Source: Halolamina litorea
GTDB lineage: Archaea; Halobacteriota; Halobacteria; Halobacteriales; Haloferacaceae
Direction of reading: 5' to 3'
DNA: 64,000 bases
Assembly: GCF_026616205.1 (NCBI RefSeq)
Contig: NZ_JANHGR010000001.1
Location: 806,001 to 870,000, forward strand
The position numbers were made by a program, and so were the translations under genes. Of the stretch, positions 53,076-56,247 are shown in pieces. Position 1 is the stretch's first letter. Every line of letters starts with the position of its first letter. The notes under the pieces were generated by a model. The model was given only the letters and a program-made list of their open reading frames with translations, did no database searches and was not told where the DNA came from.

Positions 53076-53891
53076 GTGACCCGTCTGCTAGAACACCTCA
53101 TGGCCGATGTCGACGGAACCGAGCGTCGAGCGGTCGCCGACCCGACCGACCTGAAGTACGTCGGGCCGGCGACGGCGACGGCGATCGAGGGGGCCGAGTT
53201 CTCCGGGCAGGCGGTCGCCGACAAGGAGGTCTCCTACCGGATGCTGCTCGAGGCCGGGATCAACCCCGGCGTCGCGGCGAAGATCCGCCGGCACCACTCG
53301 CTGGCGTGGTCGTTCAACAACGACGGGGATCTGGACCGGCGGTCCACGCAGGTCCGCGGCCTGCAGGACGAGGAGGCCGCGTGGGTGGCCTCGAGCGGGA
53401 TCGGCGAGACCGACGACCCCGACGAGAGCGCCGAAACCGCCGAACCCTCCCCAGCCTCTGCGGAAGACAGTTCCGACGACCGAACCGAGGACGAGGAGGC
53501 GGCGTGGATCGCCGACGCCACCGACCGTGAGGACCTCTCCATCGAGCGCATCTACGACGGCACGGCCGACGACGGCGCGGTCGACGAGGACGGGGAAGCG
53601 GCGTGGGTCGCCGACGCGACGGCCGAGGCCGACGACGCCCCCTCGGCGACTGCCGACGGGAGCGGCGACCCGCTGGCCGCCGAGGCCGCGTGGCGCGAGC
53701 GATCCAAGCCCACCCCGCTGACCGAACTCTCGGGGATCGGCGCGGAAGCCGCCGACCAGCTCGCCGAAGCCGGCGTCACGTCGGTTCGGTCGCTCGCGAC
53801 CGCCAGCCCGGAACTCCTCTCGGACGTGACCGGAATCGACGAGCAGCGACTCCGCCGCTGGCACCGCGAGGCCAGCGAGATGGCCGACTGA
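53076..53891 (+). CDS. Acidic protein with four AAW repeats and a C-terminal helix-hairpin-helix (DUF7409-like)
   Basis: This 271-residue protein has an N-terminal domain (residues about 20-80) with LKYVGPATATAIEGAEF and VAAKIRRHHSLAWSF. An acidic disordered region with four spaced copies of an EEAAWVA-like motif follows (near residues 98, 139, 172 and 201). The protein ends in a helix-hairpin-helix with LTELSGIGAEAADQLAEAGVTSVRSLATAS (partly shown). HhH domains bind DNA without sequence preference. I recall a haloarchaeal DUF7409 with a similar N-terminal domain. The GTG at 53076 is used, and the ATG at 53100 is a good alternative. Confidence 0.7.
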   Translation: MTRLLEHLMADVDGTERRAVADPTDLKYVGPATATAIEGAEFSGQAVADKEVSYRMLLEAGINPGVAAKIRRHHSLAWSFNNDGDLDRRSTQVRGLQDEEAAWVASSGIGETDDPDESAETAEPSPASAEDSSDDRTEDEEAAWIADATDREDLSIERIYDGTADDGAVDEDGEAAWVADATAEADDAPSATADGSGDPLAAEAAWRERSKPTPLTELSGIGAEAADQLAEAGVTSVRSLATASPELLSDVTGIDEQRLRRWHREASEMAD

Positions 53892-53915
53892 TACGGAAGT
53901 CCCCCGTCGCGAAGG

Positions 53916-53922
53916 CTTTATA
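53916..53922 (+). promoter_or_regulatory. TATA element of the small ORF/CHAT-like unit
   Basis: CTTTATA lies about 26-30 bases before the ATG at 53949. Transcription would begin within a few bases of the small ORF's start, making that ORF, not the large gene, the first to be read. Confidence 0.55.
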
Positions 53923-53948
53923 CTCGCAGAATCAGCATCGATAGATAG

Positions 53949-54008
53949 ATGCACAACGCCGAGGACGCGGTCCGGGGGCTCGGCAGCACGGGAGTGACCC
54001 GCCAATGA
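53949..54008 (+). CDS. 19-codon leaderless small ORF overlapping the CHAT-like gene
   Basis: The frame encodes MHNAEDAVRGLGSTGVTRQ and stops in TGA that overlaps the next ATG (ATGA, 54005-54008). It starts about 26-30 bases after a TATA box, so it should be at the very 5' end of the transcript. It has no hydrophobic segment. It may be a regulatory leader peptide or a real small protein, with ribosomes reinitiating on the large gene through the overlap. Translation is not proven. The short length means it could also be chance, but position and overlap argue for function. Confidence 0.5.
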   Translation: MHNAEDAVRGLGSTGVTRQ

Positions 54009-56095
54009 GGATCAGTATCGCGACCCGGGGAACGGAACTCCACGTCACGGACAGCATCGAGCAACGCCAGTGTGTCCTGCGAATGCCCGACGCCGCGAGC
54101 GCGGAGTCGGTCGATACCAACCGCTTCTACTTCCCCGTCGACGCCGCAGCCCGGATCAGTACCCAGAGCGTGACCCTCGCGAGCTACGTCGCCACGATCG
54201 TGCGCAACGGCGAGGGGAGCGTCGTCGGCCAGTTAGACCGCGTCGACGAACTCTCACTGCCCGCCGGCGAGTACCTCGTCGAACTCGAACAGCCCGTGAA
54301 GCTCTACGTCCGCGTCGAGGGCTCGCTCACCGTCGAGACCAACGGGATGGCGACGACCATCGGCACGGACGGCGACCTGTTCGTCGCCGCCCGGTCGCGG
54401 CACAACCACCCGGCGGGAACCATCACGACGACCGAGAAGCCCGAGGAGATGATGCGGGCGCTGTCGGCGCTCTCCTCGTCGTTGAAGACCACGTCCGTCG
54501 AGCGGTCCTACCCGACGCTCCGTGGCCACCCGCCGGAGATCGAGCTCGGTGAGGAACTCTCGATCCCGGACGGGATGAGCGCCGCCGACGCCGGCGTCCA
54601 CGTCGAGATCCCCCCGCAACTGCGCTTTCTCTACCCCGTCGCCCCGCTCGCGTTTTACCTCGGTGCCGAAATCGTGCCGGGGTCGGTCCCGAAGGTCGTC
54701 GGCGAAGCGGGGTTCAGCTATCGACTGGACGGGCCGGGCGGGTTCGAGCGTACCGTCGCGGAGACGCTGGAACAGACGCTCCTGTTCGACTGTGTCGCCC
54801 GGACCGAGGGGTTCTACGGGATCGAGTTGGCCGAGCGGGAGACCGTCGACGCCCGTGTCGACCTCGACTGGGCGGACCTGTACGATCGGTCGCTCTCGGA
54901 ACGTCTCGACGCGTACCTCTCGGTCCCCTACGAACAGGTCGCCGACTGTATCCCGGAGTGGAAGACGGCGGGCTACATCGCCCCGAACCCCGAGAACGTC
55001 GAACTGCTCCCGTACCTGCTCGACGACCTGGCCACCATCCGCACGCCGACGGGCGAGCCGACCACCGCACAGCAGGTCCAGACTGACTCCCTGTTCGACT
55101 TCGCCCGTGCCGGCGGTCGAGTCGACGCACGAACGCTGCAGGCGCCGACCCGCGCTGCGGGAACGAGCGACGCCCGTGCACAGGCCCCAGAGGGACCGCT
55201 TCCGGACCTCGTCGACCCCGAACCGACCGAGGCCTTCGAGACCGTCTGGGCCGACGACGGCGTCCCCGTCGGCGCCACGAAGGCGTCGATCGACGGCTAC
55301 CGGAACGGGCTCGAACACACCCCTTCCGAGGAGATCGGCGTCACCGTCGTCGTCAACGACGAGGGGATGACCGAGGAGGGCGACGTGGCCGCGGACGTGT
55401 ACGGCGACGACGCCGAGTTCCCGTTCGACCTCCGCGTGTACCGGAACCTCACGACAGACCGGCTGAAGGCCGTCATCGAGACCGAACGGGAGTTCCTCCA
55501 CTACGTCGGCCACGTCGAACCCGACGGCTTCGAGTGTTCGGACGGCAGGCTTGACGTTCGCGACGTCGACTTCGTCGGCGCCGACGCGTTCTTCCTCAAC
55601 GGCTGTGCGTCCTACGACCAGGGGATGGCGATGCTCGAACGCGGTGCCGTCGGCGGCATCGTCACCGTCACCGAGGTCGTCAACAGCGGGGCGACGCGGG
55701 TCGGGAAGGCGATGGTCAAGCTACTCAACCACGGCTTCCCCCTCAACGCGGCACTTTCTGTCGCCAGCGAACAGTCCTTCGTCGGCGGACAGTACTCCGT
55801 GGTCGGTGACGGTGACCTCGACATCGTACAGGGACAGGGGATCGGGGCGATGCTGACGGTGATCGAAGAATCGACTTCGGCGTACGACGTATCGGTGTAC
55901 GCCTACCCCGACAATGACCTCAGTGTCGGGTCGATGGCGTCGCTCTCTATCGGCGATGACTCCCGACAACATCTGGTCCCGGGGCTGATCGGGGAAGTCA
56001 GCTACTCGAACCGCGAAGAACTGCTACAGGCTGTCGACGGTGACCTCACGAAGTACGACGGCCAGATCCACTGGTCCAACTCACCGCCGCTGTAA
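54005..56095 (+). CDS. Large protein with a C-terminal CHAT/caspase-like His-Cys domain
   Basis: This 696-residue acidic protein has an N-terminal part of about 400 residues that I do not recognise, with alternating strands (ARISTQSVTLASYVATIVRNGEGSVVG). A disordered linker spans about residues 360-420. From about residue 430 the C-terminal domain looks CHAT/caspase-like: FLHYVGHVEPDGFE (His 503) and DAFFLNGCASYDQGMAML (Cys 534), with a hydrophobic strand before each. This His-Cys arrangement suggests a cysteine protease. A hydrophobic, Gly-rich segment follows (GAVGGIVTVTEVVNSGATRVGKAMVKLL). No membrane segment is obvious. It is the main unexplained gene in the window. Confidence 0.7.
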   Translation: MRISIATRGTELHVTDSIEQRQCVLRMPDAASAESVDTNRFYFPVDAAARISTQSVTLASYVATIVRNGEGSVVGQLDRVDELSLPAGEYLVELEQPVKLYVRVEGSLTVETNGMATTIGTDGDLFVAARSRHNHPAGTITTTEKPEEMMRALSALSSSLKTTSVERSYPTLRGHPPEIELGEELSIPDGMSAADAGVHVEIPPQLRFLYPVAPLAFYLGAEIVPGSVPKVVGEAGFSYRLDGPGGFERTVAETLEQTLLFDCVARTEGFYGIELAERETVDARVDLDWADLYDRSLSERLDAYLSVPYEQVADCIPEWKTAGYIAPNPENVELLPYLLDDLATIRTPTGEPTTAQQVQTDSLFDFARAGGRVDARTLQAPTRAAGTSDARAQAPEGPLPDLVDPEPTEAFETVWADDGVPVGATKASIDGYRNGLEHTPSEEIGVTVVVNDEGMTEEGDVAADVYGDDAEFPFDLRVYRNLTTDRLKAVIETEREFLHYVGHVEPDGFECSDGRLDVRDVDFVGADAFFLNGCASYDQGMAMLERGAVGGIVTVTEVVNSGATRVGKAMVKLLNHGFPLNAALSVASEQSFVGGQYSVVGDGDLDIVQGQGIGAMLTVIEESTSAYDVSVYAYPDNDLSVGSMASLSIGDDSRQHLVPGLIGEVSYSNREELLQAVDGDLTKYDGQIHWSNSPPL

Positions 56096-56118: not shown

Positions 56119-56247
56119 TCAGGGGCCCGAGATCGCGTGGCCCGAGTCGGCGACGACGCTCCCGGCCTGGGAGAGGAACAGCATCATCGTGAACAGTACG
56201 CCCATCATCTTCGGGTTGTCGGCGAGGAACGACTTGAGTTCGCTCAT
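56119..56247 (-). CDS. 42-residue hydrophobic peptide (DUF7503-like)
   Basis: Reading leftward from the ATG at 56247, the frame encodes 42 residues. They start MSELKSFLADNPKMMG, continue with a membrane-like stretch VLFTMMLFLSQAGSVVA, and end SGHAISGP before a TGA. It resembles a family of very small haloarchaeal proteins that I recall as DUF7503, sometimes beside CHAT-like genes. It converges with the large gene, 23 bases from stop to stop. A TATA element 27 bases upstream of its ATG gives it its own leaderless transcript. Confidence 0.75.
   Translation of the reverse strand: MSELKSFLADNPKMMGVLFTMMLFLSQAGSVVADSGHAISGP

Follow-up and report, generated by a model that had tools for sequence, protein, structure and literature searches.

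Coupling of overlapping genes by termination and reinitiation has been described in the haloarchaeon Haloferax volcanii, where strict coupling was reported for nine overlapping pairs (Huber et al. 2019, PMC6728339). At such pairs an internal Shine-Dalgarno (SD) motif gives no de novo initiation, and in most of the pairs tested it increases reinitiation without being essential (PMC6728339). In the same organism 72% of the transcripts are leaderless (PMC6728339) and the SD motifs of the 5'-UTRs are not used, as for sod, which has an SD-bearing 5'-UTR of 19 nt and is translated without need for the motif (PMC3986360). For two gene pairs of Escherichia coli, coupling needs no more of the upstream gene than its final 15 nt (Huber et al. 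2023, PMC10666635).

Short ORFs ahead of longer genes have been described in three further settings. In E. coli, mRNAs with a 5'-terminal upstream AUG (uAUG) or uORF carry an SD motif before the real gene, and some uAUG mutations lower expression of the downstream gene (Beck et al. 2016, PMC4965119). The proposal that a short ORF delivers the ribosome to a coupled gene, its peptide being irrelevant, comes from a review of translational coupling (PMC12548453). ORFs of 15-31 aa have also been reported upstream of H. volcanii genes (Babski et al. 2016, PMC4983044).

The window, which is the whole 64,000-nt stretch of Halolamina litorea DNA that was analysed, contains a 19-codon mini-ORF that resembles each of these systems in part. 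It has in common with the H. volcanii pairs a 4-nt overlap, an SD-like motif in the upstream frame (weak in the window copy) and a haloarchaeal host, but the upstream partner in those pairs is a real gene (PMC6728339, PMC10666635), whereas here and in related loci it is an ORF of 6-25 codons with an unselected peptide, placed where the mRNA is predicted to begin. In the E. coli uAUG mRNAs the SD motif works de novo, the effects of the upstream element varied and ptrB is partly independent of uORF translation; the available text of that study, unlike the Halolamina loci, gives no instance of an exact overlap that is conserved (PMC4965119). The proposal in the coupling review is a general one, and the natural example in its available text is mycobacterial (MIRU repeats), haloarchaeal and leaderless examples being absent from that text (PMC12548453). 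The H. volcanii uORFs were taken from 5'-UTRs of 150-250 nt only, with no overlap criterion in the accessible description (PMC4983044), whereas the leaders considered here measure about 17 to 75 nt. Haloarchaea are known to use leaderless starts as well as termination-reinitiation, and what appears to be a new variation is that the two are joined, and conserved together, in a peptide-free mini-ORF. The titles and abstract beginnings of the literature matches listed contain no description of conserved leaderless NTGA mini-ORFs in haloarchaea, and the ribosome-profiling tables of H. volcanii may contain single cases.

The mini-ORF and its promoter in Halolamina

The mini-ORF lies on the + strand at 53949-54008, begins with ATG and reads MHNAEDAVRGLGSTGVTRQ followed by a stop codon. 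Its TGA (54006-54008) overlaps the ATG (54005-54007) of the ORF at 54005-56095 (+) in a 4-nt stop/start overlap, ATGA (54005-54008, +), and an SD-like motif within the mini-ORF, GGGAGTGA (53990-53997, +), lies 7 nt ahead of this next start codon. A TATA box, TTTATA (53917-53922, +), begins 32 nt above the ATG of the mini-ORF and is preceded by a BRE-like CGAAG (53910-53914, +), comparable to the haloarchaeal BRE CGAAA (PMC4983044). In most cases the best hexamer has its start at -30 to -34, both at mini-ORF loci and in homologues of the downstream gene where the leaderless start is in frame, and the -32 of the window copy lies inside the range of the in-frame homologues. From this spacing the mini-ORF is predicted to be leaderless. 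The upstream gene (53076-53891), which encodes DUF7409 and helix-hairpin-helix domains, ends 57 nt ahead of the mini-ORF, so the TATA box falls in the intergenic gap; transcriptional read-through from this gene into the mini-ORF may occur.

The large downstream gene was found in all seven Halolamina genomes searched, and each of them has the TATA box followed by an ATG that opens an ORF ending in a TGA in overlap with the main start. The hexamer is TTTATA or TTTATG at the same position in all seven, and the overlap is ATGA in four and GTGA in three. The mini-ORF is 19 codons long in five copies and 15 in the other two; in the alignment the two lengths differ by a single in-frame gap of 12 nt. 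Because it is conserved in the seven Halolamina genomes and at 24 other loci of the gene family, the layout reported in the earlier note (TATA box, ATG at 53949 and NTGA overlap) is confirmed as real, with the mini-ORF as the first coding sequence after the TATA box and its stop codon overlapping the next start. The large gene is unbroken in six of the genomes; in H. pelagica CDK2 (G002; L003/L020) it is interrupted close to its start and a second time further along, which may be a sequencing fault, the assembly being 79% complete. The stretch between the TATA box and the ATG (53928-53948) has 11 invariant columns of 21 in the Halolamina alignment, against 9 of 52 in the body of the mini-ORF, and is a possible regulator site.

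The peptide shows little sign of selection. For the 19-codon mini-ORFs of Halolamina the pooled pS is 0.379 and pN 0.364 (pN/pS 0.96; five copies, ten non-independent pairs), compared with a pS of 0.315 and a pN of 0.089 for codons 1-10 of the main gene in four of the same species. The two 15-codon copies, a single pair, give a pS of 0.134 and a pN of 0.234. In genus g18 the mini-ORF has a pS of 0.226 and a pN of 0.225 (pooled pN/pS 1.00), and the main-gene start is only mildly constrained as well (pS 0.278, pN 0.191), so the contrast between the two is small in that genus. These values suggest that the peptide evolves neutrally, the ATG, the frame and the overlap being kept but the amino acids not.

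SD-like pairing in the 15 nt ahead of the overlap reached P ≤ 0.1 against shuffled sequences in 21 of 32 copies. The duplex of the window copy is weak (-8.6 kcal/mol, P 0.12), and those of the six other Halolamina copies range from -9.8 to -13.8 kcal/mol. The P value of 0.1 was missed by five of the seven copies of 21-25 codons and by four of the five six-codon copies, a length at which the shuffle is a weak test. Ten leaders were overall no more stable in RNA folding than their shuffles (z from -1.76 to +1.66), so a hairpin opened by translation is not indicated, and no attenuator-type codon runs were seen in the mini-ORFs when judged by eye. A regulatory leader peptide or attenuator is very unlikely on these grounds, the pN/pS being about 1, the fold ordinary and such runs not apparent.

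Start arrangements in the gene family and at other genes

In the taxonomic family, 141 of the 170 genomes contain homologues of the large gene (E ≤ 1e-60), and the upstream regions of 147 loci, part of all matches, were read. An ATG was taken as TATA-spaced if an AT-rich hexamer (5 of 6) started 34 to 28 nt above it, and each locus received one label in the order mini-ORF, in frame, neither, with L020, where the gene is broken, set by hand. A TATA-spaced ATG is present at 84 of the 147 loci and missing at 63. The 84 consist of 31 mini-ORFs with an overlap of ATG, GTG or TTG plus A, one with CTGA, 48 loci at which the ATG is in frame and four that are neither. The mini-ORF loci are spread over seven genera, or eight if the CTG case is counted, and have lengths of 6 to 25 codons with a single case of 54. 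The earlier note had proposed an alignment of relatives as a check for conservation by frame and length; the frame is kept in the genus and at the family loci, contrary to the lack of a conserved frame that the note had named as a refutation, while the conservation of length is limited (19 or 15 codons for Halolamina, 6-25 for the family, one of 54). At the CTG locus (L132, genome G028) the mini-ORF overlaps a CTG at the site of the ATG or GTG of its relatives; no NTG start in the main frame lies above this CTG, back to the in-frame stop, and its use as a start by reinitiation is possible.

The mini-ORF state changes nine times at best fit on a tree of 117 of the 147 loci, and at least five of the changes are forced by well-supported branches. 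This is a rough count, since the tree, made after thinning, has 138 columns and long branches and carries state labels that were assigned manually ahead of the strict tally, from which a few in-frame rows differ. The clade that contains Halolamina has 13 rows from four genera (support 99/91).

Different arrangements occur within single paralogue groups of Halolamina. In group 3, compared in six species with the fragmentary copy of a seventh left out, five species have a six-codon mini-ORF and in the other (L025) the same TATA-spaced ATG is in frame. In group 2, an upstream partner of about 225 aa, to which the gene is coupled by GTGA, is present in four species, and two species without the partner (tblastn, E ≤ 1e-3, inside the 5-kb locus) have TATA-spaced ORFs of 23 and 54 codons, the latter judged by eye, that overlap the same start. 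In this group a short coupled ORF seems to have taken the place of an upstream partner gene that was lost. Towards the end of the group 2 partner (L013-L016), which overlaps the CHAT-like start by GTGA, the stretch EQRWHLPGRG is conserved; several other family members are likewise preceded by tails of the form RWH(L/V/I)P. Genus g18 has a five-codon ORF between an upstream gene and a paralogue, overlapping both, which may be a mere upstream stop plus SD motif. None of the 21 homologues read in genus g21 has a TATA-spaced ATG, and in two the ATG is just 22 nt from the hexamer. One locus of this genus (L115, genome G117) has a 29-codon ORF with an NTGA overlap and a TATA-like hexamer 22 nt away, the rest of the genus being without the layout.

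The layout was also sought in 1093 predicted genes on 1.264 Mb (1.2 Mb of genome G005 plus the window). Eighty-six ATGs open an ORF of 4-30 codons with an NTGA overlap, and eight of these have an AT-rich hexamer at the right distance, compared with two to seven at six wrong distances. Enrichment by the TATA-distance filter is not clear and the layout alone is weak evidence; the screen therefore served as a source of candidates and to compare family members with other genes, and conservation was examined for three of the five genes from outside the CHAT-like family. Three of the four sampled family members have the layout, as opposed to 5 of 1089 other genes.

One of these others is the gene for the pyruvate dehydrogenase E1-alpha subunit (Pfam E1_dh), which has an NTGA mini-ORF in all seven Halolamina genomes. 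Among 60 relatives from 17 families, 20 had no match at the cut-off (E ≤ 1e-150), and the mini-ORF is present in all 40 haloarchaeal genomes with a match, the seven Halolamina included, which represent nine families (L199-L205, L212-L234 and L265-L274). Counted from the nearest ATG, its length is 6 to 9 codons. It is predicted to be leaderless, and 34 of the 40 pass the hexamer test at the ATG picked by the script. A photolyase-related gene (Pfam DPRP) has the layout in each of the five Halolamina genomes, out of seven, that carry it, with 14 or 15 codons as judged by eye. The other screen matches are a 165-aa ORF, a G005 gene of 250 aa with no relative at E ≤ 1e-30 in the six other Halolamina genomes and one G005 copy of superoxide dismutase with a five-codon ORF. 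The layout of the last is absent from the two Halolamina relatives read (L254, L263), and superoxide dismutase was rejected as a conserved case, the layout being found in 0 of 16 genes (15 of 30 loci, those with a recognised N-terminus).

Proposed ribosome delivery by the mini-ORF and alternative readings

The observed TATA-to-ATG spacing, 4-nt overlap, frame-preserving change of length, neutral peptide and SD-like motif in most copies form the basis of the reading preferred here, that the mini-ORF is probably a leaderless, cis-acting ORF that delivers ribosomes to the large gene by termination-reinitiation. RNA polymerase would start at or beside the ATG at 53949, as the TATA spacing suggests, and a ribosome would bind the 5'-terminal AUG in the way common to all leaderless mRNAs of haloarchaea. 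The 19 codons would then be translated, their amino acids being irrelevant, and the ribosome would terminate at the TGA and reinitiate on the overlapping ATG, probably assisted by the SD-like motif in the last codons. Taken together, the published results on coupling, on SD motifs and on the final 15 nt imply that a leaderless mini-ORF would suffice for a ribosome to reach an SD-bearing start. It is likely, as the earlier note put forward, that the large gene depends on reinitiation. Strict dependence is not guaranteed, since the translation of sod without its SD motif and the missing layout at sod genes point to another start route on leadered mRNAs.

The earlier note had gone further and seen in this arrangement an unusual control that could keep the level of a protease low. 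The mini-ORF would in that case capture ribosomes of which only a fraction reinitiate. Reinitiation is perhaps incomplete, a protease-like product could need limiting, and the variable state of paralogue group 3 could make levels tunable, but the same layout at E1-alpha (40 of 40 genomes) and at the photolyase-related gene (5 of 5), the 48 of 147 family loci at which the TATA-spaced ATG is in frame and an SD-like motif that should favour reinitiation in most copies all speak against such a control, which we regard as unlikely. Initiation of the large gene de novo on its own 5'-UTR, with the upstream ATG and frame incidental or providing mere ribosome binding nearby, has a precedent in E. coli ptrB, where the 5'-uAUG aids the downstream start partly without uORF translation (a start-stop mutant retains 40% of the wild-type level, and a uAUG mutant less than 8%; PMC4965119), and in H. 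volcanii sod, which does not need its SD motif (PMC3986360). A binding site alone would need neither the frame nor the exact 4-nt overlap, both of which survive changes of length across the family, and initiation of this kind is considered quite improbable.

The short length and conserved position of the ORF could also be those of a functional microprotein or a sensing leader peptide. With pN/pS near 1 in two genera, a sequence and length that vary freely and no attenuator-type codon runs by eye, there is very little probability that the peptide itself acts. A chance ORF would agree with the screen, in which NTGA mini-ORFs with a hexamer at the right distance are hardly commoner than those with one at a wrong distance; its presence in every Halolamina genome and at 31 + 1 family loci in eight genera, together with the share of family members against other genes in the screen, leaves this reading with a probability that is close to negligible.

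A wider pattern can also be considered. We lean, with some reserve, towards the view that peptide-free leaderless mini-ORFs form a class that serves haloarchaea as portable loading sites for ribosomes, with the E1-alpha mini-ORF as the type case. Where a start codon works by reinitiation only, its gene would be supplied by a partner gene upstream or by a mini-ORF, or be fused in frame to the leaderless AUG, states that would be swapped in evolution. Some short SD-containing '5'-UTRs' of haloarchaea would in that event be coding, and such mini-ORFs would be overlooked by gene annotation and by 5'-UTR statistics. The class would provide a testable answer to the question of how a haloarchaeon translates SD-bearing internal starts when, as in H. 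volcanii, the SD motif gives no de novo initiation, and a rule by which to search for further cases (a TATA box, a 5'-terminal ATG, an NTGA overlap, a conserved frame and an unconserved peptide). Because the E1-alpha mini-ORF occurs in nine families, testing is probably feasible in a tractable haloarchaeon, for example Haloferax volcanii if its copy is confirmed.

The downstream CHAT-like gene

The gene at 54005-56095 encodes a predicted CHAT/caspase-like protein of 696 aa, an assignment based on the family alignment and on weak Pfam CHAT matches in relatives. Such matches were obtained for 4 of 24 family members (best E 0.0024), the member in the window not being among them. Searches of Pfam, NCBIfam and the anti-phage defence library PADLOC with the 696-aa protein gave no match, a PDB profile search gave nothing at E ≤ 1, and an AlphaFold2 model from four sequences (pLDDT 36.9) was too poor for fold comparison. 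His503 (codon 55511-55513, +) and Cys534 (codon 55604-55606, +) do not vary in any of the 24 relatives aligned and are putative catalytic residues, presumably the His-Cys pair of the clan. The label 'protease-like' is reasonable as a predicted activity.

Caspase-like activity has been measured in H. volcanii, no gene having been assigned to it in that work (PMC3615174). The CHAT-like family, with its invariant His and Cys and its presence in 141 of 170 genomes, is a speculative candidate for the source of that activity.

Tail to tail with the CHAT-like gene in the window lies a DUF7503 gene of 42 aa on the minus strand (56119-56247; Pfam E 2.7e-21), and DUF7503-like peptides are found beyond the gene end at four other Halolamina loci (L007, L009, L010 and L011).
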